Assembly (NCBI RefSeq): GCF_036417355.1
Contig: NZ_CP143889.1
Location: 1,674,001 to 1,738,000, forward strand
Reading direction: 5' to 3'
DNA: 64,000 nucleotides
DNA from: Akkermansia sp. RCC_12PD
GTDB lineage: Bacteria; Verrucomicrobiota; Verrucomicrobiia; Verrucomicrobiales; Akkermansiaceae
The notes below the pieces were generated by a model. It was not told where the DNA came from. It did not search any database and was given only the letters and a program-made list of their open reading frames with translations. This document shows positions 27,346 through 53,005 of the stretch, piece after piece. The translations under genes and the position numbers were made by a program. Position 1 is the stretch's first letter. The number at the start of each line of letters is the position of its first letter.

Positions 27346-27539
27346 GTTGTGATAATGTTGGTGTATTTTGACCCGCTTTCATTTGAAAGGCGAGGAATAT
27401 TGGACAGAACTATACTTACGCCGGACCTATTGCAAGATAAAGGTGCAGAAAATATTGTCATTTCTCCGGGAAAGTCCGGTTCCGCTTGAGGTGGTGCGGG
27501 AATCCCTGTACTACTGGTGCAGGCAACGCGTTCGCTGGC

Positions 27540-30500
27540 ATGATCCGATGGTTTTTTGACATACCCTCCAAGCTGATCCACTGGAGGTTGAATCTGGTCA
27601 GAACACTGGGCGCCTATGTTCCGTGGCTGCGCCGGGATGACGGGTCCATGAAGATCCACGCCGGAACGCTGGTGGACCTGTTCGCTACCATTTTGAGCGG
27701 CCGCCGCCACTTGAGCGCGCGGGATGCGGACGCCGCCCTGGATATTCTGCGCTACACTTTCCCGGAAGTGGAGCACCGCTGGCTTTCCAACCGGTTTGAA
27801 CGGTCCATGCGCGCCAGCCTGACGGTGGAGGACGTGCTGGCGTCCGCCGCCTCCGGCCGGGATGAAACGGAGCGCATGGCGATTGCCCTGGAAGTGCTTT
27901 CCCTGCTCATCAATACTGGAGACCCCAGGATGACCGGGGAGCTGTTTGATCAAGTGACGTACGGGCTTGAACTGCCGGGAGCGGCCAACCATTTAAGGCA
28001 GCTTCTGATGACTCCGGATGTGGAGGCCCAGGAACCGGCCTACAGCGTGAGTTTTTCATCCGGAATCGGCGGAGAGGTGTCTCTCCCGGAGTCCGACCAG
28101 GGGATCTCCTTCCGGCTGATCCGGTGTTCCCGCCTGGTGCTGGTGGTTAACGACGGCTCCAAGTCCATCGTGGTGCGCGGGCGGCATTTGGCCACCGGCG
28201 GAGTGATGCCGCTGACCAACGGACAGGTGGTGCTGCTGCCTTCCGGGCCGCTGAGTTTTGAGGATTTCGCTTTTTTCCTGGATTGCAAGCGTTCCGGCAA
28301 GCAGGAAGTCTGCTATCTTGTCCTGGACAACGGTTCGCTCCAGATCAGCCGCATGAGGTCCAGAGCCAGCGCGGTGCGCGTGAGCATGGGGCTGGCCTGC
28401 GAGGTGGAGGTGCTGAGGCCGGAGGTGGAGTTTGTGGTGGACGGCCACCGGCTGTATCCCGGAGAAAGTGTCAGGATGGAATATTATTCCTCCTTCACGC
28501 TGGATGGGGAAGGCCCTTTTTCGATGGGGGAGATGCAGAACGCCCTGTCCGACATCGGACGCCGCTTCCGCCTGGACCCCGGCACCCGCAAGCTGCGCGT
28601 GACCAACATGCCGGAAAAGGCGCGCAAGGGGGATATGCTGCTGACTCCGGGGCTGGCAGCCGGAGTAGTGCTGGAGGTGTCTTTTTCCAGCGCTACCAAT
28701 TCCGGCTGGCTGGAGGTGATGGAGGCGTCCATGCCTCTGTGGATCAACGGCAGGATTGTCAAGGGCCGGATGTCTTTAAAGGACGGGGACGTGGTGCACC
28801 TGAATTCCTACCATGCCCTGCGCTGCCGGTTTTCCGCCGGGGTGCTGGATGAAGAGTACCACGCCATCAGGACGCTCAGCGTGGAGGGCGTGACCAAGGA
28901 ATTCCGGCGCTCCGGACGCGTTCTGGATAATATCGACCTGAGCGTGAAGCGCGGAGAAATGGTGTGCATTTTGGGGCCCAGCGGGTCCGGGAAAAGCACC
29001 CTGCTGGCCATGATGGCGGGGCATCTGCCGCCCACGCGCGGATGCATCCGCTACAACAACCAGCTCCTGTACAGCGCACCGGAACTGGTGCGCCCCTATA
29101 TTGCCTTCATTCCCCGGGAAGACATTTTGGACGCCGCCATGAGCGTCTCGGAACACATCGCCCAGGCTACCATCATACGGAGGCCGCGCCTGACGCGCTC
29201 CGGCCGTGCCAGGAGGGTGAACGCCATCCTGAAATTCCTGGGGCTGACGCACATCGCTTCCCGCCGCGTGGGGGAAATGAATGCGCGCACCATTTCCGAC
29301 GGGGAGAGAACGCGCCTGAACCTGGGGCTTGACCTGGCAGGCATTGCGGACGTGTTCCTGCTGGACGAGCCCATTAGCGGCCTTTCCACCTCGGATGCCA
29401 AGCTGGTCATGCAGACCCTGCAGAACATGAGCCGCGACAAGATGGTGATCGCCACGATGCACCGCCCCAGCACGGCCATTCTGAACCAGTTCAACAAGGT
29501 GCTGGTGCTGGACCACGGCGGCCAGATGGCCTACTGGGGTGATGTGCCGGGCATGATGCGCTATTTCCGGAAGGCGGCCGTGGACATGTCCATAGACGTC
29601 TCGGAAGAGTCCCGGACCGCCGGAGGTGCGGATTACGTATTTGAGGTGCTGGAAGCCCCCCTTTCCTGGCACGACCGCCGCCGCAGGCAGCATCCGCGGC
29701 TGTGGCAGGAACGCTTTGAGGGCTACCGTTTCCGCAACGTGATGGGGCACCATCATGAAGGAGGCGCCCCCAGGACGCTGTATGAAGGCACGCTGGAGTT
29801 TCCTCCCGCTCCCCGCCGCAGCGTGATGCAGCTGTGGCGGCTTTTCCGCATCTGGGCCGTACGCACGTTTCTGGGGCGCGTCCGGAGCCGGATGGGGCTG
29901 TACACCATGCTTCTGGAAGGTCCCGTGCTGGCCCTGCTGATTTCCCTGACGCTGCGCGCTTCCTCCAGTCCGGAATACACGTTTGCCACGGCTCTTCACA
30001 TTCCGTCCTATCTGTTTCTGGCGACGATCGTAGCCATGTTCTTTGGCCTGACCGGGGCGGCCAGCGAGGTGCTCAAGGACCGTGCCCTGCTCAAGAGAGA
30101 AAGCAATTCCAAAGTGTTCGTGACCGGTTACGTTCTTGCCAAGGCGCTGGTGCTGACAGGGCTGTCCGCCGTGCAGTCCGCCCTGTTCCTGTGGGTGGGG
30201 AACGCCATTCTGGAAATCCATGAAATGTTTCTGGTTTACCTGGGGACGATGACTCTGACGGCCTTTATCGGTGTAAGCCTGTCCCTGCTTGTCTCCGTCT
30301 TTGCCAAAACGGAGCGCGCGGCGCTCAACATGGTGCCGCTGCTGCTGATTCCCCAGATTCTGATGGCCGGGGCCATCGTGCATTTTGATGAAATGAACCA
30401 GTTCATTCCCTGGTCCGCCCACCGCACGGACGAGCATGGCCGCCTCAAGCCGGGCCGCGTTCCCCTGGTGGCGGAGTTTTGTCCCCTGCGCTATTCCTTT

Positions 30501-31076
30501 GAAATGATGGTGGTGGACCAGGCCTCCAAAAACGTCTGGGAAAAGGAACGGGAAACCATTCAGGAAAAAGTGGATGAACTGAAGGCCAAGCCCCAGTTGA
30601 GCAACCGTGAATTTGAGGAGTTCAAGCTGCTCAAGCTGGCGCTGCTGCACATTTCCGCCATTGGCGCGGAGGATCCGGAACAGGCGAAAGATGCCGTGCG
30701 AACCGTCCGGCGCGCCGCCATCGACGGTTCGGAAAAAAGCTACAAGCGGACGATCTCCGAGCTGGAGCAGAAGGGAAAAGGCAAGCCTTCCGTCAAGTCG
30801 TTCTATGTCAACGACCGCATTGTGATGCTGGATGAGTCCGCGGAAATTCAGCGGGTCAGCCGGGATACGCTGGACCGCCCGGAGATTTTCCTGGCGCGCC
30901 GCCAGCCTCTGCCGTGGGGCAATTCCGGGAAGGCTCCGGATGATCCTGGCTATAGCGCGGACGAAGGGACGGTGCCCACGCCGTGGAAGGACTCCGTGTT
31001 CCTGTTTCTGATGGGAGCCGCACCTCTCTTCGTGACGGGACGCGTAATCAAAAGGCGGCTGGAGAAAGCGGGCTAG
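27540..31076 (+). CDS. Fused ABCG-type transporter with TerB-like and FHA-like N-terminal regions
   Basis: This protein has 1178 residues. An N-terminal helical segment (about 20-165) is TerB-like (TLVDLFATILSGRRHLSARDADAALDILRYTFPEV). Beta-rich modules (about 170-440) include an FHA-like WINGRIVKGRMSLKDGDVVHL. The ABC ATPase has Walker A GPSGSGKST (about 478), the altered signature ISDGERTRLNLGLDL, and Walker B VFLLDEPISGLS. An ABC2 membrane domain of about six helices (770-960) is interrupted by a 150-residue helical soluble insert before a final helix. The organisation resembles FHA-modulated ABC efflux pumps. The substrate is unknown. ATG 27540 is chosen over the upstream TTG 27486. The next gene has its own promoter. 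Confidence 0.85.
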   Translation: MIRWFFDIPSKLIHWRLNLVRTLGAYVPWLRRDDGSMKIHAGTLVDLFATILSGRRHLSARDADAALDILRYTFPEVEHRWLSNRFERSMRASLTVEDVLASAASGRDETERMAIALEVLSLLINTGDPRMTGELFDQVTYGLELPGAANHLRQLLMTPDVEAQEPAYSVSFSSGIGGEVSLPESDQGISFRLIRCSRLVLVVNDGSKSIVVRGRHLATGGVMPLTNGQVVLLPSGPLSFEDFAFFLDCKRSGKQEVCYLVLDNGSLQISRMRSRASAVRVSMGLACEVEVLRPEVEFVVDGHRLYPGESVRMEYYSSFTLDGEGPFSMGEMQNALSDIGRRFRLDPGTRKLRVTNMPEKARKGDMLLTPGLAAGVVLEVSFSSATNSGWLEVMEASMPLWINGRIVKGRMSLKDGDVVHLNSYHALRCRFSAGVLDEEYHAIRTLSVEGVTKEFRRSGRVLDNIDLSVKRGEMVCILGPSGSGKSTLLAMMAGHLPPTRGCIRYNNQLLYSAPELVRPYIAFIPREDILDAAMSVSEHIAQATIIRRPRLTRSGRARRVNAILKFLGLTHIASRRVGEMNARTISDGERTRLNLGLDLAGIADVFLLDEPISGLSTSDAKLVMQTLQNMSRDKMVIATMHRPSTAILNQFNKVLVLDHGGQMAYWGDVPGMMRYFRKAAVDMSIDVSEESRTAGGADYVFEVLEAPLSWHDRRRRQHPRLWQERFEGYRFRNVMGHHHEGGAPRTLYEGTLEFPPAPRRSVMQLWRLFRIWAVRTFLGRVRSRMGLYTMLLEGPVLALLISLTLRASSSPEYTFATALHIPSYLFLATIVAMFFGLTGAASEVLKDRALLKRESNSKVFVTGYVLAKALVLTGLSAVQSALFLWVGNAILEIHEMFLVYLGTMTLTAFIGVSLSLLVSVFAKTERAALNMVPLLLIPQILMAGAIVHFDEMNQFIPWSAHRTDEHGRLKPGRVPLVAEFCPLRYSFEMMVVDQASKNVWEKERETIQEKVDELKAKPQLSNREFEEFKLLKLALLHISAIGAEDPEQAKDAVRTVRRAAIDGSEKSYKRTISELEQKGKGKPSVKSFYVNDRIVMLDESAEIQRVSRDTLDRPEIFLARRQPLPWGNSGKAPDDPGYSADEGTVPTPWKDSVFLFLMGAAPLFVTGRVIKRRLEKAG

Positions 31077-31319: not shown

Positions 31320-31886
31320 ATGATGTCTGCCCGTTTATTCAATAAGTATTCTCTCTCTTCTCTGTCTCTGGCAGCATTGTCTGTCGGATTTCTGTCCTGC
31401 GGAGGCAGCGGCGATACTGGGGAAGGGGATTGTCTGCCGACCGGGAGCAGACTGGACATGGTAGTGCCGATTACGGATGAAGTAAACCCGGAAAATCGCG
31501 GTGATCTGACTATTCAGTTGACGGGCAATGGCTCCGATCTCCCGTTGGCGAAGATCCAGGGAGCGGCGGCCAGTCCTGCGATTCCTGCGGAGACCCACAT
31601 GATCTACAGGAGACCGAGTGCCGAGAAAGCTTCCCTGAAAGGAAACTTCGTAATAGCCCAGGGACAGATTACCCTGCCCGGTCCGATTGTGGTGATTTTT
31701 TATGGCTCCGTCCAGGTGGATATGGATATTACGTACCAGGCTTCCACAAAGCATGAAGATACGAGCGGCACATGCACGGGGTTCGTTCGCTTCATAGGCG
31801 CCGTGCAGGAGGGCGGCGGGGCCGTTGCCGGAACCCCGTGGTCCGGAACGACCGGCAACGTGTACTACCACCCCACCGGCAATTGA
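31320..31886 (+). CDS. Small CGG-type lipoprotein A
   Basis: The 188-residue lipoprotein has the signal MMSARLFNKYSLSSLSLAALSVGFLSC and a lipidation Cys followed by GGSGD. The mature part is beta-rich (DLTIQLTGNG, GPIVVIFYGSVQVDMDITYQAS), has Thr-Cys late in the chain (TSGTCTGFVRF), and ends in Asn (YYHPTGN). I recognise no named family. It resembles the lipoproteins at 35093, 35621 and 52532 in size, lipobox context and C-terminus. It precedes an exporter operon and is separated from it by an attenuator-like hairpin. Confidence 0.82.
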   Translation: MMSARLFNKYSLSSLSLAALSVGFLSCGGSGDTGEGDCLPTGSRLDMVVPITDEVNPENRGDLTIQLTGNGSDLPLAKIQGAAASPAIPAETHMIYRRPSAEKASLKGNFVIAQGQITLPGPIVVIFYGSVQVDMDITYQASTKHEDTSGTCTGFVRFIGAVQEGGGAVAGTPWSGTTGNVYYHPTGN

Positions 31887-31931
31887 TTGGTCATCTCCTC
31901 AAGTGGCCCATGAGTCACAGATTTTATATTC

Positions 31932-31975
31932 AAAGTGCGGTGGTTCGCAAAGGACTTCCGCGCTTTTTCTTTTAC
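31932..31975 (+). terminator. Terminator or attenuator between lipoprotein A and the exporter adaptor
   Basis: A 9-bp stem with one G-U pair, AAAGTGCGG / CCGCGCTTT (31932-31966), is followed by TTCTTTTAC. It lies nine bases before the adaptor ATG, so partial readthrough would lower exporter expression relative to the lipoprotein. Confidence 0.6.
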
Positions 31976-31983
31976 AGGGAAAT

Positions 31984-33048
31984 ATGTTGAGAACGTGGAA
32001 GAAATCCTGCCTGACGGCATTGCCATGCGTCTTCGCATTCAGCCAGCTGCATGGAGCCGTGATGGATTCCGTCCCGGATGCGGGCAGGGAAGCCCCTGTT
32101 GCCGCACAGGACTGCTATATCAATGCATTCAAGGCCAAGATCGTGCCCGAGAGGATACGCTCGTTCGCCATGCCGGCGGACGGGATTGTCAGCAACTGGA
32201 TTCCGGCGGAAGGGAGGGTCCGGAAGGATGCCATCATTGCTACGGTCAATGAGGACGAGATCGAGATGGAGCGCAGAGATCTGGAAGTCAAGATTATGAA
32301 GGATCGCATCGCCAAGAAGGAAGAACTGTCCGAACTGGAAAAGCAGCTGGAGGAGATGAAGTTCTATTCCTCCCTGTCCCGGGAAGAAAGGGAGTATGCC
32401 AGCAAACAGCCGGAGGGGGGGCAGAAAGCGGAGCAATCCCTGAAGGAAAAAATAGAGCTGGTCAAGAAGGAGTTGACCATGGTGGAAGACAAGCCCAGGC
32501 TGGAGTTCCGCAAGAAGGAGGAAAAGTACATCCTCAGAATGCCCTTTGACGGCAAGCTGCAGTACCAATTCTCCTTTCCGCGGGACGACAGCACGTCCCT
32601 GTATCTGGATGCGGCATCTTCCATTGCGACCGTTTGTGATGATTCCGCCTATTATATTACCATTTCCATTACCGATCCCGATCTGACCAGGCTCCCTCCG
32701 GAATCCCTGTATCTGGCAGTGCCCATGAGCGACGGGTCCTCTCTGAAGGGAACGTTTGCTTTCAAGCGTGTGGAAAAGAACACCTCCAGCGGGGGGGATT
32801 TGCTGGCCTACTTTTTCCGCCTGCCTCCGGAAGAGCATGAGCGGGCACATGCCATGCTGGGCTCCAATTGTACGGCCAGGCTTTATTATTCCCCCCCCGG
32901 AGAGGTAATCCGCCTTAATAAAATCCGGCTGGCTTCCAGTCCGGAAGGGAGAAAATGCTCCTCCTGGCAGGAACTTCTGGAAAAGATGCATCCCGATCTG
33001 GAGCTGGTCGTGAGCGGTGAAACGGAATTGATTGTTCGGAAAAAATGA
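31984..33048 (+). CDS. HlyD/MacA-like periplasmic adaptor
   Basis: The 354-residue protein starts at ATG 31984 behind AGGGA, with a signal peptide (MLRTWKKSCLTALPCVFAFSQLHGA). Two lipoyl-like halves (IRSFAMPADGIVSNWIPAEGRVRKDAIIATVNE at about 60-90 and ILRMPFDGKLQYQF at about 185) flank a helical hairpin of about 90 residues (EIEMERRDLEVKIMKDR ... KIELVKKELTMVE). The C-terminal beta-barrel ends ELVVSGETELIVRKK. This is the membrane-fusion-protein plan. The gene overlaps the ATPase gene (ATGA), so they are translationally coupled. It contains homopolymers G7, G7 and C8, in frame as given. Confidence 0.78.
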   Translation: MLRTWKKSCLTALPCVFAFSQLHGAVMDSVPDAGREAPVAAQDCYINAFKAKIVPERIRSFAMPADGIVSNWIPAEGRVRKDAIIATVNEDEIEMERRDLEVKIMKDRIAKKEELSELEKQLEEMKFYSSLSREEREYASKQPEGGQKAEQSLKEKIELVKKELTMVEDKPRLEFRKKEEKYILRMPFDGKLQYQFSFPRDDSTSLYLDAASSIATVCDDSAYYITISITDPDLTRLPPESLYLAVPMSDGSSLKGTFAFKRVEKNTSSGGDLLAYFFRLPPEEHERAHAMLGSNCTARLYYSPPGEVIRLNKIRLASSPEGRKCSSWQELLEKMHPDLELVVSGETELIVRKK

Positions 33049-33677
33049 AATTGGAATGTGAATCCGTCTGGTTCAGCTATTCGAACAAGCAATGGATTTT
33101 TGAGAATTACAACAGGGTTTTTTCTTCCGGAATCACTATTTTAAAGGGATATTCCGGATGCGGGAAGACTACGCTGCTGAAAATTCTGGCCGGTTATCTG
33201 CGGCCCCAGCGGGGGAGGGTGCTTACCCCCCGCCGCGCGTCCCTGACGGATGCGCTTTACCGCCGCAAGGAGGTGAGCTACATGTTCCAGGGCATCAACC
33301 TGCTGCCTCTGGCAACGGTGGAAAGAAATCTTCAGCTATGCGCGGAAATGGCCATGCTGCCGAGAAAGCAGTGGAAGCGCAGGGCAGATGACCTGGTGGA
33401 AAGGCTGGGTTTGGAGTCCCTGCGCCACAAGAAGGCCGGAAGCCTGTCCGGCGGGCAGGCCCAGCGCGCCGCCCTGGCCCGGACATTGATGAAGGATTCC
33501 GATATTCTGCTGCTGGATGAACCTACTTCCGGACTGGATGACGGCAACACGGAGATCATCAAAAAACTGATCAGGGAGTATCCTGCCGACAAGATTTGCA
33601 TTCTGAGTACGCATGATTCACGCCTTTTTGATCTGACTCATGAAATCATTGATTTTAATCAGCCTGTATCTCTTTAA
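33045..33677 (+). CDS. ABC transporter ATPase of the tripartite exporter
   Basis: The 210-residue ATPase has Walker A GYSGCGKTT (about 36-44), a Q-loop in YMFQGINLLP, signature SLSGGQAQRAALARTL, Walker B DILLLDEPTSGLD, and a switch His in LSTHD. It most resembles LolD/MacB-type ATPases that work with FtsX-like permeases. Its 3' end overlaps the permease start by 38 bases. It probably drives substrate from the outer leaflet or periplasm through the adaptor and an outer-membrane factor. Confidence 0.92.
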   Translation: MKLECESVWFSYSNKQWIFENYNRVFSSGITILKGYSGCGKTTLLKILAGYLRPQRGRVLTPRRASLTDALYRRKEVSYMFQGINLLPLATVERNLQLCAEMAMLPRKQWKRRADDLVERLGLESLRHKKAGSLSGGQAQRAALARTLMKDSDILLLDEPTSGLDDGNTEIIKKLIREYPADKICILSTHDSRLFDLTHEIIDFNQPVSL

Positions 33678-34785
33678 GGATACGCTTCACCGTTGGAAGG
33701 AAAGGCCGGCCAGCCCTCTTTCCCGGGTACTCGTTGCGTTTTTTCTTTCCTTGTGCGCTCTTTCCTTTCTTGCGAATTACGTTCTTTCCTCCAAAATGCT
33801 GCATGATGAGATCAGGAAGAACGGAGCGGACCTGATCATGGTTTTTGATACCGTGCGTGAGGGAGAGGCCTCCAAAAGAAATCTGCTCCAGCACGAACTG
33901 CCTCTCCTGCACGGCTGCGACGTTCTGGCCCTGAAGGACTCCCCGGCCGGGTTTGCCAGGGTGGGGAAGCCCGCTTTCCCTATTTTGGAATACAACATGG
34001 AGTCCTGCGCTTTTCTTGCCGATCTGGAGTTGGAGGCGCATCCTGTCGTCCTCCTGTTTAATCCCGGCAGGAGTCCGCTGCATCCGGGGCCGTGCGTGGT
34101 ATCCATCGGAGATTTTGATTTTTCCCTGAATGCCTCCCCGCTTCCGGAAAACCATTTGCTGGGGAAGCTGTATCCTTCCGGAGTGATTTTGACCCCGGAG
34201 GGTGCTTTCAATTCCGGATTGGATTCCCCCATGAGCAATTACCGTTATGTCATCCGGGTGCATGAGATGACCGCAGCCAATATCCAGAGCATTGAGGAGA
34301 CGCTGAACAACATTGTACGCTATGACGGGAGCATGACGATAGTCCAGACGCACGTGGGACTCCTGAAGAGGCTGGAAGTTCTGATGAGCAACCAGATGGA
34401 ATGCCGGATGGGTTTTTCCATCGGCATTGCGGTTATCGTGGGGATTCTTCTGACTGCCCTGGCTTCCATGGAATTCCGCCAGAACGAATATGTTTATACC
34501 CTGATGAAAAGTTTCGGGGTGCGGCCTGTCCTTCTGATCCTCACATTCATTGTTGAGAATATTTTCCTGATAGGCATTTCCTTTGCCGGAGCCGTATGGG
34601 CTTTCATGAAGACGCAGAAGATCGTCCTCGGAGAGTTTTTCAAATTGGGCGATACCGTTCTGACGTATGCCGATATACGGCAGGATTTGTGGCTTCTGGG
34701 CGTTTCCCTTTTAGGATGCGTGCTGTTTTCTTCCATTCCGGTCGCATTCTCCGCCTATCGCCCCATCGGAAAGGTTTTGAAATAG
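33640..34785 (+). CDS. FtsX/MacB-like permease of the tripartite exporter
   Basis: The 381-residue protein has one helix near the N-terminus (VLVAFFLSLCALSFLANYVL, about 30-50), a periplasmic domain of about 200 residues, and three C-terminal helices (SIGIAVIVGILLTALASMEF; LILTFIVENIFLIGISFAGAVWAF; LLGVSLLGCVLFSSIPVAFSAYRP). That is the FtsX/MacB/LolE topology, and the end SAYRPIGKVLK matches the family. Such permeases do not transport across the inner membrane but push periplasmic or lipid-anchored substrates outwards. The start ATG 33640 lies inside the ATPase gene. Confidence 0.85.
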   Translation: MKSLILISLYLFKDTLHRWKERPASPLSRVLVAFFLSLCALSFLANYVLSSKMLHDEIRKNGADLIMVFDTVREGEASKRNLLQHELPLLHGCDVLALKDSPAGFARVGKPAFPILEYNMESCAFLADLELEAHPVVLLFNPGRSPLHPGPCVVSIGDFDFSLNASPLPENHLLGKLYPSGVILTPEGAFNSGLDSPMSNYRYVIRVHEMTAANIQSIEETLNNIVRYDGSMTIVQTHVGLLKRLEVLMSNQMECRMGFSIGIAVIVGILLTALASMEFRQNEYVYTLMKSFGVRPVLLILTFIVENIFLIGISFAGAVWAFMKTQKIVLGEFFKLGDTVLTYADIRQDLWLLGVSLLGCVLFSSIPVAFSAYRPIGKVLK

Positions 34786-35036
34786 GCCGCATACAGGTAA
34801 ATTCCGTTGTTTGGGAAAGGAGACACAGGTTCTGTTCCCTGCAGGAGGATGGAAAGGAATCGGGATAAGGAGTTTTGGGGCTTTGCCCTTCTCCGGCGAT
34901 AGGTTGGACGTTGGAATGTCCGTTTTTCCATGATCCGGTCCGGATTATCCGGCCAGACTGCACCGTACAGGATTAAAGACGGGTATTGCCAGGGAGAGTG
35001 CCCTTCCCTGTTTTTAGGGAGGACTTTTCCGCCATG
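34786..35036. other. Gene-free spacer between permease and lipoprotein B
   Basis: No supported gene. The spacer lies between convergent transcription units and ends in a bidirectional terminator. Confidence 0.5.
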
Positions 35037-35068
35037 AAAAAACCCGCAGAGATATCCGCGGGTTTTTT
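35037..35068. terminator. Bidirectional terminator
   Basis: An 11-bp perfect stem AAAAAACCCGC / GCGGGTTTTTT has a 10-base loop. The A and T runs give U-tracts in both directions, serving the exporter operon (+) and the lipoprotein B/C operon (-). Confidence 0.9.
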
Positions 35069-35092
35069 GGAAAGAACAGGAAGGATGAGCTG

Positions 35093-35578
35093 TTAATTCG
35101 GTAAATAGAATTTCGTAATCGTTCCGGGGCGGTCCGTGACGGCAGGGTCGGCAAAGTAAATATCGGATACGGCGCATGTGGCGCTTCCGGTTCCCTTGGT
35201 GACGTTTTGGACATTGGTCATGACCATGTAGCAGGGGAAAGCTTCTTCCCCATCCCTGTTGGTGTACCAGTAAAAGGATACTTCACTTGCAGTGTCGTCC
35301 GCGGGAACGTAGCCTCTGACGTGCATGGATGCGTTGCTTGGGCTTCCGCTTTCGCCGGAATAAATGGTGGCGTTCTGTGCGGAAATCACATTAAAGCTAA
35401 AGACGTATGAGACTTCTCTGCCTTCCGGGTCTTCCAGGGAAACGGTTACAGTGCGGGCGGTGCCCACAGGAAGATAGATTTCTTCCGTTTTGCTGGAACC
35501 GCCGCAGCCCGTAAGCGCCGAGATGCATAATACAGAAGGGAGCAACAAGGAAGTCAGGATGCAAAAACGGGTATTCAT
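35093..35578 (-). CDS. Small CGG-type lipoprotein B
   Basis: The 161-residue lipoprotein has the signal MNTRFCILTSLLLPSVLCISALTGC with lipidation Cys about 25, then GGSSKTEEIYLPVG. The mature part is beta-rich (VTVSLEDPEGREVSYVFSFNVISAQ), carries a late Cys after Ala-Thr (TGSATCAVSDIYF), and ends FYLPN. It shares this plan with the other small lipoproteins in the window. No known domain is recognised. It follows lipoprotein C by 42 bases in the same operon. Confidence 0.82.
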   Translation of the reverse strand: MNTRFCILTSLLLPSVLCISALTGCGGSSKTEEIYLPVGTARTVTVSLEDPEGREVSYVFSFNVISAQNATIYSGESGSPSNASMHVRGYVPADDTASEVSFYWYTNRDGEEAFPCYMVMTNVQNVTKGTGSATCAVSDIYFADPAVTDRPGTITKFYLPN

Positions 35579-35620
35579 ATGGATGAGAAATGTCGTGAAT
35601 TATATCGAGGAAGGGGAGGA

Positions 35621-36103
35621 TTAGTTGTTATAGAAAACGGTGATGTCCGCCGTGACATTGTTGAGAGTTTCCATCTCCGCTCCTGCGGGTTGGGATGAAA
35701 GGGTGGCTCCTTCCCCTCCTGCCACTGCATGCGTGGACTGGTCAAATTCGAGAGAAGGTATGTCCAGGGAATAGGCGGTAGTATTGTTGGTGCCCTGGGT
35801 CCAGCGCAGATTCAGGTGAGCGGTATTATCGCCTGTTTTGTAGTACACCACGGTGGGGGCGCCGTTCCATAAGGCAATTTGACTTCCTCTGGTGGTGAGC
35901 ACGGATTGCCCGGTGGTGTCAGTGATTAACTCAAAGATGTTCGGGAACGATGAAGCCGTTATGCCCAGCGAAATGGATACCGTGGTACCGTTAAGCGTCG
36001 TGGGGGCACTGCCGCTGCCGCTGCTGCTTCCGCCGCATTGGGTGAGAAAGAGGAGTCCTAGGGAGCAGCAAGCCATGGAGATGGTTTGAAAAAGAGGGCA
36101 CAT
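35621..36103 (-). CDS. Small CGG-type lipoprotein C
   Basis: The 160-residue lipoprotein has the signal MCPLFQTISMACCSLGLLFLTQC, then GGSSSGSGSAPT, a flexible Gly/Ser linker. The mature part is beta-rich (TTVSISLGITASSFPNIFELITD; AHLNLRWTQGTNNTTAYSLDIPSLEF) and ends ITVFYNN. It is unrecognised beyond the shared layout of the small lipoproteins. It is transcribed away from the TolC-like gene, so the two may share a regulatory region. Confidence 0.8.
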   Translation of the reverse strand: MCPLFQTISMACCSLGLLFLTQCGGSSSGSGSAPTTLNGTTVSISLGITASSFPNIFELITDTTGQSVLTTRGSQIALWNGAPTVVYYKTGDNTAHLNLRWTQGTNNTTAYSLDIPSLEFDQSTHAVAGGEGATLSSQPAGAEMETLNNVTADITVFYNN

Positions 36104-36287
36104 AACAACTAACTGGATAATATTTATTGCGCAGACTGTGGTATTTCCTATGGTTTGTCAAGGAAGGAAATCTGGAAAATGAAAGACACAGGAAAAGGCC
36201 TTGATGGAAAAGACGGAGCCGGAGCCGCCTCCAGCCCTTTTTTCCTTTCCAGCCCTAGTTCCTTTCCCGGATCTGTCGTGTTGGTGC

Positions 36288-36315
36288 TTGACTTTTCAGG
36301 GGCAGAAGTTATGAA
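36288..36315 (+). promoter_or_regulatory. Candidate promoter of the TolC-like gene
   Basis: TTGACT (36288-36293), 16-base spacer, TATGAA (36310-36315), 12 bases before ATG 36328. It supports 36328 as the start because the competing ATG at 36311 would lie inside the -10 box. Confidence 0.45.
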
Positions 36316-36327
36316 ACGAACACCCTC

Positions 36328-37614
36328 ATGCTTTTTTTCTCCCCGGTTTCCCGCCTTTTCCGGAGGCCATTCAGAGCGGCCTGGTTGAAGGGCGCATTGT
36401 GTTCCTGCATTTGCGCCTCCGTCTGGACTTCCTGTTCCGTGGACAAGCACATGGAAAGAAAGGCGGGAGAGTTGATGGACCGTATGGCCGCTATTCCCGA
36501 TTGGAATCGGCTTCCCAGAAAGGAGATTTCATGGGACCAGGCCATGGCCTGCATGATGGAGGGGAATTTGGATTTGAAGCGTTCCGAACAATCCCTCAGG
36601 ACGACGGAGCGTGCGGTCGTCAATGTATTTACCCAAATTATCCCGGGTGTAAACCTGGACTGGATGCTGACGAAGGAGCTGAGCGAACTGAGCCGGGTGA
36701 CGGCACAGGATGTGGAGTACAATACCAACATTCTGTTCAATATGCCGTCTCTGACCCAGATTCCCTTTGACTATTATTCCGCCAAATCCGCCGTTTATAC
36801 GGCCCAGAAGACGCTGGAAATGAAAAAAAGGGAGCTTGTGTCCCGCCTGTACCGGCAGGTGCTTTCCTATCAAAATGCGCGTATCAGTTACAGGAACCGG
36901 CTAAATTCGCTGCCTTATAACGATGACGGGATTCAGAAGAAGATAGCGGAACAGGAACTGGAGAAAAGCCTGGATGATATTTCCGAGGGATTCGCCACGC
37001 TTATGGGGAATATGGAGGCCCGGTGGCTTGTGAGGCCCGAAACGATGCCCAGGCTGGACTGGGGAAAATACAAGTCCGCCGCACGCCATTTGGACCTGCT
37101 GGTGGTAACTATGGTCGCCATGGAGCTGGAAGCGTCCAGATTGCAGGTGCTGAATGCCAAAATGAAGTTTTTCCCGTCCGTGGATATCAATTTTTACAGC
37201 CCCACCCTGTTTTCCAGTACGGGCGGCACGTATCAGGGCTTTTTTGCCGGAGGAGGGGACATGCAGGTGAATATGAGCCTGCGGGAAGAGCTGGATACTC
37301 GCCTGATCTCGTGGTTCCAGTATAAGACGGCCAAGGAGAATCATGATTTGATGCAGAAAAAGGTTCTGATGGATTTGCAGCAAAGGCGCATCAAGGTGGC
37401 CGCGCTGATGGAGAGCCGGAGAAGGTTTGAGATCTGGAAGCAGGTGATTCTGAAAGAAATTGAGTTCAAGAAATCCCGCATGGCTTTTTCCGGCAAGGAG
37501 TATCTGGAACAGCGGAAGGATATTAAAACGATGTATGAGAACCTGGATTCCGAAACTGCGAAAAATGCGGAAGTGGAAGCGGCCCTGATCATGGAGTACG
37601 GGTGGTTGAAGTAG
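36328..37614 (+). CDS. TolC-like outer-membrane factor, probable lipoprotein
   Basis: The 428-residue protein has N-terminal hydrophobic sequence with a possible lipidation Cys (ASVWTSCSVD, about 36). The outer-membrane efflux repeat is recognisable twice: WDQAMACMMEGNLDLKRSEQSLRTTERAVVN, with long coiled-coil helices, and in the second half YKSAARHLDLLVVTMVAMELEASRLQVLNAKMKFFPSVDINFYSP. These form the trimeric barrel plus periplasmic tunnel. Placed next to an adaptor/ATPase/permease operon, it is the likely outer-membrane exit of that exporter. A second ATG (36311) with a good AGGGG lies in another frame. Confidence 0.82.
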   Translation: MLFFSPVSRLFRRPFRAAWLKGALCSCICASVWTSCSVDKHMERKAGELMDRMAAIPDWNRLPRKEISWDQAMACMMEGNLDLKRSEQSLRTTERAVVNVFTQIIPGVNLDWMLTKELSELSRVTAQDVEYNTNILFNMPSLTQIPFDYYSAKSAVYTAQKTLEMKKRELVSRLYRQVLSYQNARISYRNRLNSLPYNDDGIQKKIAEQELEKSLDDISEGFATLMGNMEARWLVRPETMPRLDWGKYKSAARHLDLLVVTMVAMELEASRLQVLNAKMKFFPSVDINFYSPTLFSSTGGTYQGFFAGGGDMQVNMSLREELDTRLISWFQYKTAKENHDLMQKKVLMDLQQRRIKVAALMESRRRFEIWKQVILKEIEFKKSRMAFSGKEYLEQRKDIKTMYENLDSETAKNAEVEAALIMEYGWLK

Positions 37615-52531: not shown

Positions 52532-53005
52532 ATGTTTCCGCCGATGAAAGTTTTTCCTCTGTTTTCCTTTTTGTTTTCCATAGCACTGATAGGAACCCTG
52601 GGCGGGTGCGGCGGCGGATCAGGCCGCTCAGGAGATGACGGGGGGTCTTCCCTGAGCGGGCGTACGGCTGTTCTGGTGGAGGAAGGAACGGCTTTATTCA
52701 GCCTTCGATTCACAGGACGGGATGTGAATATTACCCGGATGGGGAACATGTTTGAGTACAAGGGAGTTTATGCGTATGCTGTCCGTCCTGACCGCCATTC
52801 CGCGATTCTCGATATCAAGTCCGGTGCGGATGGCGATACGTACTGCACCATGAGAGACGTTCTGATTGTTTTTGACGATGCCGAATGCAACAGCGGCAGC
52901 ATCGTTTCCGGAACGTGTACGGAGTTCGGCCCTCATCTTGATCCGAAGGTCCAGGGTGAACCCCAGCCCATGGGAGGGTGGATTTTGGATCTCTCTCAGA
53001 ATTAG
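52532..53005 (+). CDS. Small CGG-type lipoprotein D
   Basis: The 157-residue lipoprotein (a shorter start at 52544 is equally possible) has the signal MKVFPLFSFLFSIALIGTLGGC, then GGGSGRSGDDGGSSLSG, a long Gly/Ser linker. The mature part is beta-rich (LFSLRFTGRDVNITRMG; HSAILDIKSG), has a late Thr-Cys (SGTCTEFGPH) and ends LSQN. It lies 15 kb from lipoproteins A-C yet shares their layout. There is no known domain. Confidence 0.8.
   Translation: MFPPMKVFPLFSFLFSIALIGTLGGCGGGSGRSGDDGGSSLSGRTAVLVEEGTALFSLRFTGRDVNITRMGNMFEYKGVYAYAVRPDRHSAILDIKSGADGDTYCTMRDVLIVFDDAECNSGSIVSGTCTEFGPHLDPKVQGEPQPMGGWILDLSQN

Follow-up and report, generated by a model that had tools for sequence, protein, structure and literature searches.

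A conserved exporter and lipoprotein unit in Akkermansia and related Verrucomicrobiota: a candidate route for lipoprotein surface display

In the complete 3.17-Mb genome of Akkermansia sp. RCC_12PD we analysed a 64,000-bp stretch (contig NZ_CP143889.1, positions 1,674,001 to 1,738,000; hereafter the window, in which all coordinates are given). At ~31.3-37.6 kb it encodes what is best read as a tripartite MacAB/TolC-type (type VII) ATP-binding cassette (ABC) exporter, together with three small predicted lipoproteins. Comparison across related genomes supports the exporter and the lipoproteins as a conserved unit. A lipoprotein gene accompanies the exporter in 15 of 15 genomes with the cassette type found here (type W), in 11 of 11 observable cassettes of a second Akkermansia type (type B) and in 12 of 12 observable loci beyond Akkermansia, and is absent from all 57 core cassettes (type A), which have no linked TolC gene. 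This distribution makes a dedicated lipoprotein exporter, probably leading to the surface, the best available reading. Such a route had been proposed from this one locus, and the sequence pattern across genomes makes a stronger case than that locus did by itself. On this linkage, lipoprotein and exporter are almost certainly functionally coupled. The comparisons also favour, with more reserve, the neighbouring lipoproteins as cargo that the exporter displays at the cell surface, these being predicted to be lipidated on a cysteine and to carry a beta-domain on a glycine-rich tether.

Gene order and linkage in Akkermansia

LIPO1 (31323..31886, +; 187 aa) is a predicted lipoprotein with the lipobox FLSC/GGSGD and one beta-domain. 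It lies upstream of genes for a MacA/HlyD-like periplasmic adaptor (31984..33048, +), an ABC ATPase (33045..33677, +) and an FtsX/MacB-type permease (33640..34785, +). Two further predicted lipoproteins follow on the opposite strand, LIPO2 (35093..35578, -; 161 aa, lipobox LTGC/GGSSK) and LIPO3 (35621..36103, -; 160 aa, lipobox LTQC/GGSSSGSGS). The last gene of the set encodes a TolC-like outer-membrane factor (36328..37614, +). The original prediction had described the adaptor, ATPase and permease as translationally coupled, with a TolC-like factor 1.5 kb downstream and three lipoproteins around them, and this layout held: the first two genes overlap by 4 nt, the second and third by 38 nt, and the TolC-like gene begins ~1.5 kb beyond the permease. 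The 38-nt overlap is common to most Akkermansia homologues that have the ATPase gene. In the relative L075, the TolC-like gene directly follows the permease.

The adaptor was detected in 35 of 37 Akkermansia genomes of a first sample and in all 21 of a second, and the TolC-like protein in 35 of the first 37. Trees of the two proteins show the same three groups, also where their genes are unlinked. The core type A cassette consists of adaptor, ATPase and permease, with the TolC gene elsewhere. Type W, to which the locus studied here belongs, has the ATPase and usually a TolC gene nearby, and type B comprises adaptor, permease and TolC with no adjacent ATPase gene. In Akkermansia glycaniphila Pyt, two equally scoring type A cassettes were found on different scaffolds (L162 and L163), reflecting either duplication or assembly redundancy.

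Linkage was scored by a strict lipobox test, which is independent of the domain profile described below and calls a lipoprotein with a C-G-G start within 2.5 kb of a cassette. Nine of nine type W loci passed, versus none of 57 type A loci; around the unlinked core TolC genes, the surroundings were covered in a few loci. Inspection or profile matches added L073 and L074 (G004 and G017), G084, G093, G109 and G152, giving the full type W count, and in the type W loci examined the lipoprotein lies directly upstream of the adaptor. For type B, 6 of 11 loci passed the strict test. By eye, lipoproteins with variant lipoboxes, missed by the test, were recognized in L077, L209, L214 and L218. The count of 11 observable type B cassettes takes into account that L219 ends at the adaptor and that L215 contributes two cassettes; the lipoprotein is again usually directly upstream of the adaptor. 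As background, the more distant flanks of the Akkermansia loci contained four such lipoboxes in ~751 kb. The Akkermansia counts come from related genomes and are not independent events, and the strength of the linkage is its recurrence at different genomic places and in other families. In the first searches most Akkermansia seemed to lack the lipoproteins, which appeared to tell against the proposal until the paralogous and non-Akkermansia cassettes were taken into account.

Type B cassettes without an ATPase gene were seen in L076-L082, L209, L213-L219 and L225. Their permeases keep the coupling-helix motif (alignment A2), and the sampled genomes with a type B cassette also carry one with an ATPase. 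Given these two features, type B cassettes may borrow the ATPase of another cassette. Just upstream of the type B cassettes in L077, L080, L081, L082 and L213 is a divergent tyrosine-recombinase-like gene, and cassettes with this neighbour are perhaps mobile or switched.

The unit beyond Akkermansia

Loci outside Akkermansia were found through the adaptor or permease profiles, never through the lipoprotein. They come from other genera of the family and from two other families of the class. Its occurrence there is uneven: one of these families has the unit in 3 of 61 genomes, another in 6 of 8. The usual operon order is lipoprotein, TolC, adaptor, ATPase and permease. A lipoprotein gene adjoins the TolC gene in every observable locus (L250, L251, L252, L254 and L297-L304). 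Where the start of TolC can be placed clearly, the spacing is no more than ~80 nt, and L303 shows a short overlap of a few bases. L250 and L254 have an over-long TolC reading frame into which the lipoprotein frame extends. Presence of the gene set in other Verrucomicrobiota was the check suggested for the locus, and failure of the genes to co-occur, which would have told against the proposal, did not arise among the type W, type B or non-Akkermansia loci.

Eight of these 12 loci pass the strict C-G-G test, versus no such match in 70 kb of distant flank, and seven match the domain or lipoprotein profile at E <0.001. The loci without a profile match have, by eye, a motif of the AP-S-S-L-N-G or RP-x-S-x-x-G type or a Gly/Ser-rich start. 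In several of the 12 loci the adaptor is itself a predicted lipoprotein, with a C-S or C-K start, so within one operon the glycine run is limited to the presumed cargo.

Identity of the exporter parts

The ATPase has its full set of catalytic motifs intact (Walker A GYSGCGKTT, signature LSGGQ, Walker B LLLDEPTS and the H-loop). Its best NCBIfam models are those of a bacteriocin exporter, DevA and FtsE, each below its cut-off; the DevA match (E=5.7e-37, 127.4 bits, cut-off 295.8) does not reach the subfamily threshold. LolD scores lower than all three, so the earlier label of LolD-type ATPase was right about the ATPase and loose about the type. No Pfam or NCBIfam family above cut-off was found for the adaptor, the permease or the TolC-like protein, and no family for any of the lipoproteins. 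Single-sequence Pfam scores, all sub-cut-off, were E=0.004 for OEP (TolC-like protein), E=0.03 for FtsX (permease) and E=0.14 for HlyD (adaptor), and the adaptor matched the RND_mfp model at E=0.011. Profile searches of the PDB with these three proteins returned nothing convincing. Because their identities are weak by sequence, they rest on a structural match of the permease to MacB, a profile match of the adaptor to MacA, and gene order.

An AlphaFold2 model of the permease, built on a 45-sequence alignment, has a mean predicted local distance difference test (pLDDT) score of 83.9. It shows the MacB-type arrangement of four membrane helices, a large periplasmic domain after the first helix and a coupling helix (motif MEFRQNEYVYTLMKSFG). 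Foldseek placed MacB (5lil) first (E=1.2e-8, query TM-score (TMq) 0.65); next came a pneumococcal non-canonical ABC transporter and, slightly lower, LolE (7arh, TMq 0.58). A permease profile searched against the MacB and LolC/E-like permeases of the same genome was uninformative.

In the adaptor, a signal peptide is followed by two lipoyl-type halves with a predicted coiled-coil hairpin between them; no obvious membrane anchor was seen in its sequence. Its profile matches the canonical MacA of the same genome over 290 columns (E=9.6e-7), placing it among MacA/HlyD-like adaptors. Of the parts, the TolC-like protein has the least sequence support for its assignment. The OEP match is a single stretch, and a profile comparison with the TolC of the same genome aligns only the N-terminal part. 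The assignment leans on hairpin and helix repeats recognized by eye, constant gene order and a lipobox (TSC/SVDK) that predicts a lipid anchor, in which C36 and S37 are invariant across 16 homologues. The genome has a separate operon of MacA, ATPase, MacB-type permease and TolC, as well as a separate LolC/E-like permease. Thus, the exporter described here is neither of these systems.

The lipoprotein family

LIPO1, LIPO2 and LIPO3 share one layout: a lipobox, C-G-G, a Gly/Ser-rich stretch and a single beta-rich domain, which in LIPO3 includes an AP-x-x-L-x-G motif. Searched over the 3.17-Mb genome, a domain profile (A1) gave four matches only, namely these three proteins (E=2.3e-12 for LIPO2 and 3.0e-15 for LIPO3) and a fourth, LIPO4 (52532..53005, +; lipobox LGGC/GGGSGRSG; E=2.2e-15). 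As the profile was built partly from the genome's own lipoproteins, more distant members elsewhere could be missed. Genome G004, whose sequences are absent from A1, also gave four matches in the same pattern. LIPO4 is ~15 kb downstream of the locus, has no linked exporter and is a possible unlinked cargo. A DNA pattern for C-G-G-G-G was tried as a lipoprotein finder and rejected, as chance matches swamped it, judging by a reversed control.

The three linked genes behave as real genes. Their ratio of nonsynonymous to synonymous divergence (dN/dS) is <0.5 in every comparison with enough divergence, at 0.17-0.39 for LIPO1 and 0.15-0.49 for LIPO2 (versus three relatives). In most comparisons, lipoprotein dN exceeds that of the exporter genes by ~2-6 fold, and dN/dS stays far below 1. 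Identity to the mouse isolate L154 is 39-44% for the lipoproteins, compared with 73-90% for the exporter parts. By these measures, the lipoproteins are kept as genes yet fast-changing. Across loci, they number from one to five, range from 136 to 640 aa and have one to several domains.

The best of five AlphaFold2 models of LIPO3 (pLDDT 78.5) is all-beta with 10 strands; the other four are poor. Against the PDB it had no match at E=0.001 and weakly resembled small barrels, lipocalin, fHbp and Tp0751. Since the models are mostly poor and no PDB match is significant, we draw no function from the structure. In three type A Akkermansia loci (L105, L106 and L110) we noted secreted proteins of ~580 aa with ankyrin-like repeats and the same beta-domain at the end.

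Proposed route and rival explanations

In the route that we favour, the lipoprotein would be exported by Sec and processed by Lgt, Lsp and Lnt, as the lipobox implies, and so reach the outer leaflet of the inner membrane. The ATPase would then drive the permease, which by its fold family is expected to lift the lipoprotein from the membrane. The adaptor and the TolC-like factor, recognized by sequence or structure, would assemble into a conduit through the outer membrane. At the end of the route, the lipid anchor would sit in the outer leaflet, where the flexible Gly/Ser run could hold the beta-domain off the surface. A candidate sorting signal is the C-G-G start, which the TolC-like lipoproteins encoded at these loci do not have. 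Variation of the lipoproteins in number, size and domain count, together with their fast divergence, is more in line with exposed cargo than with an invariable part of the machine. For the fullest form of this proposal, a Verrucomicrobiota surface-display system in which the exporter recognizes the glycine run after the cysteine and places lipoproteins outside the outer membrane, with some cassettes borrowing an ATPase, we consider the case evenly balanced.

Several observations weigh against lipoprotein export. Type A cassettes occur in most Akkermansia species and persist with no linked lipoprotein, so the exporter there would need another or an unlinked substrate. The same beta-domain is present in secreted proteins that type A genomes encode away from any cassette, a number of which have ankyrin-like repeats, and it matches weakly in other members of the order. 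Some linked lipoproteins do not have the C-G-G start (C-P-D, C-P-S, C-P-G, C-N-D, C-S-N and C-H-K were seen). The permease fold is slightly nearer to MacB, whose known cargo is not an acylated protein, than to LolE. Lastly, operons outside Akkermansia mostly have a single lipoprotein, which would suit an accessory part of the machine as well.

That last point belongs to the main rival, a lipoprotein partner that binds TolC. Here the lipoproteins would be accessory parts, for example docking on the TolC-like factor to steady or open it, and the true cargo would be a small molecule, a lipid or a peptide. The usual single lipoprotein gene beside the TolC gene outside Akkermansia agrees with this, and there is a precedent in E. 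coli, where TolC has a lipoprotein partner (PMC13082787). A structural part is, however, poorly matched by one to five proteins per locus of such different lengths and with repeated domains, by their divergence relative to the machine, or by the unlinked fourth copy, and the TolC-like protein already has a predicted lipid anchor of its own. We therefore regard an accessory role as unlikely, if still the most serious competitor to lipoprotein export.

Were the machine a normal efflux pump of MacAB type, expelling a toxic compound or peptide, this would be in keeping with a permease fold nearest to MacB and an ATPase that scores best with the bacteriocin-exporter model. The lipoproteins would then be co-made sensors, receptors or decoys, exposed or periplasmic, that are not transported. 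This appears improbable, as the genome already has its canonical MacAB-TolC operon, no gene for resistance, regulation or biosynthesis was seen to be kept with the unit, and in three families the unit is consistently accompanied by the lipoprotein. Least probable is a Lol-related system in which the TolC-like factor has some other use. The fold search does rank LolCDE among its best matches, and Aat of E. coli has been described as partly Lol-like, but a LolC/E-like permease exists elsewhere in the genome. An adaptor and a TolC-like factor, for which Lol sorting has no role, are also part of the operons outside Akkermansia, and their trees group alike even where the genes are unlinked.

Relation to described systems

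The original prediction knew of no described system for such a route, a view that is not borne out. Aat of E. coli (AatPABCD) is comparable: it is a composite of LolCDE-like, MacA-like and TolC-like parts that displays acylated dispersin/CexE on the surface (Icke et al., 2021, PMC7943197). It has been proposed as a "lipoprotein secretion system" in which signal peptidase I first cleaves the cargo and a dedicated Lnt-like enzyme, AatD, then adds the acyl group to its N-terminal glycine (PMC7943197). We compared the two from that published description (PMC7943197) rather than by sequence. Both have a LolC/E-related permease, a separate ATPase, a MacA-like adaptor and a TolC-like factor. In both, the gene for the known or presumed cargo is sometimes linked, and the Aat cargo is a small acylated protein shown on the surface. 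They differ in that all linked lipoproteins read here have a predicted lipobox cysteine, whereas Aat cargo is acylated on glycine, and in that no AatD-like CN-hydrolase is linked to the exporter here; the host phylum also differs. The RCC_12PD genome has three CN-hydrolase proteins, none of them in the window, of which one reads as Lnt-like and one as NAD-synthetase-like.

MacAB-TolC is similar in permease fold (the best structural match), adaptor homology and the TolC-like factor. In E. coli MacB, however, ATPase and permease are fused in one chain, and here they are separate genes; all parts here except the ATPase fall below curated family cut-offs, and there is a constant lipoprotein partner. 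LolCDE likewise has a lipoprotein partner, the same permease fold and a separate ATPase, but it pairs LolC with LolE and has no adaptor or TolC-like factor, while a single permease gene with both is found here. The heterocyst glycolipid exporter DevBCA-TolC combines an adaptor, an FtsX permease, a separate ATPase and TolC; it differs in its cargo class and neighbours, and the ATPase here is under the DevA cut-off. In the lipoprotein export signal (LES) of Bacteroidota, an acidic K-(D/E)2 or Q-A-(D/E)2 motif marks surface lipoproteins (PMC5080379). The residues that follow the predicted lipidated cysteine could do the same here, with a glycine run in place of acidic residues.

Our literature search found no paper on a system of this kind in Verrucomicrobiota. 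For bacteria with two membranes, few models of lipoprotein delivery to the surface exist (SLAM, LES of Bacteroidota and Aat). If the proposed route is correct, it would be a second, cysteine-based example beside Aat, with a candidate sorting signal. The unit is compact, and its five genes, including the presumed cargo, allow a direct test. Akkermansia is a gut bacterium that attracts study because of how it affects its human host, and surface lipoproteins would be among the first molecules met by immune receptors.

A neighbouring ABC-2 transporter gene

Upstream of LIPO1 is a gene for an ABCG-like ABC-2 transporter (27486-31076, +), with the ATPase at about residues 480-630 and the membrane domain at residues 787-977. 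We rejected this gene as a member of the unit: it adjoins the locus in many type W relatives, but neither type B cassettes nor those outside Akkermansia were found to have it as a neighbour. By eye, its long N-terminal region appears FHA-like, a reading that Pfam did not confirm.

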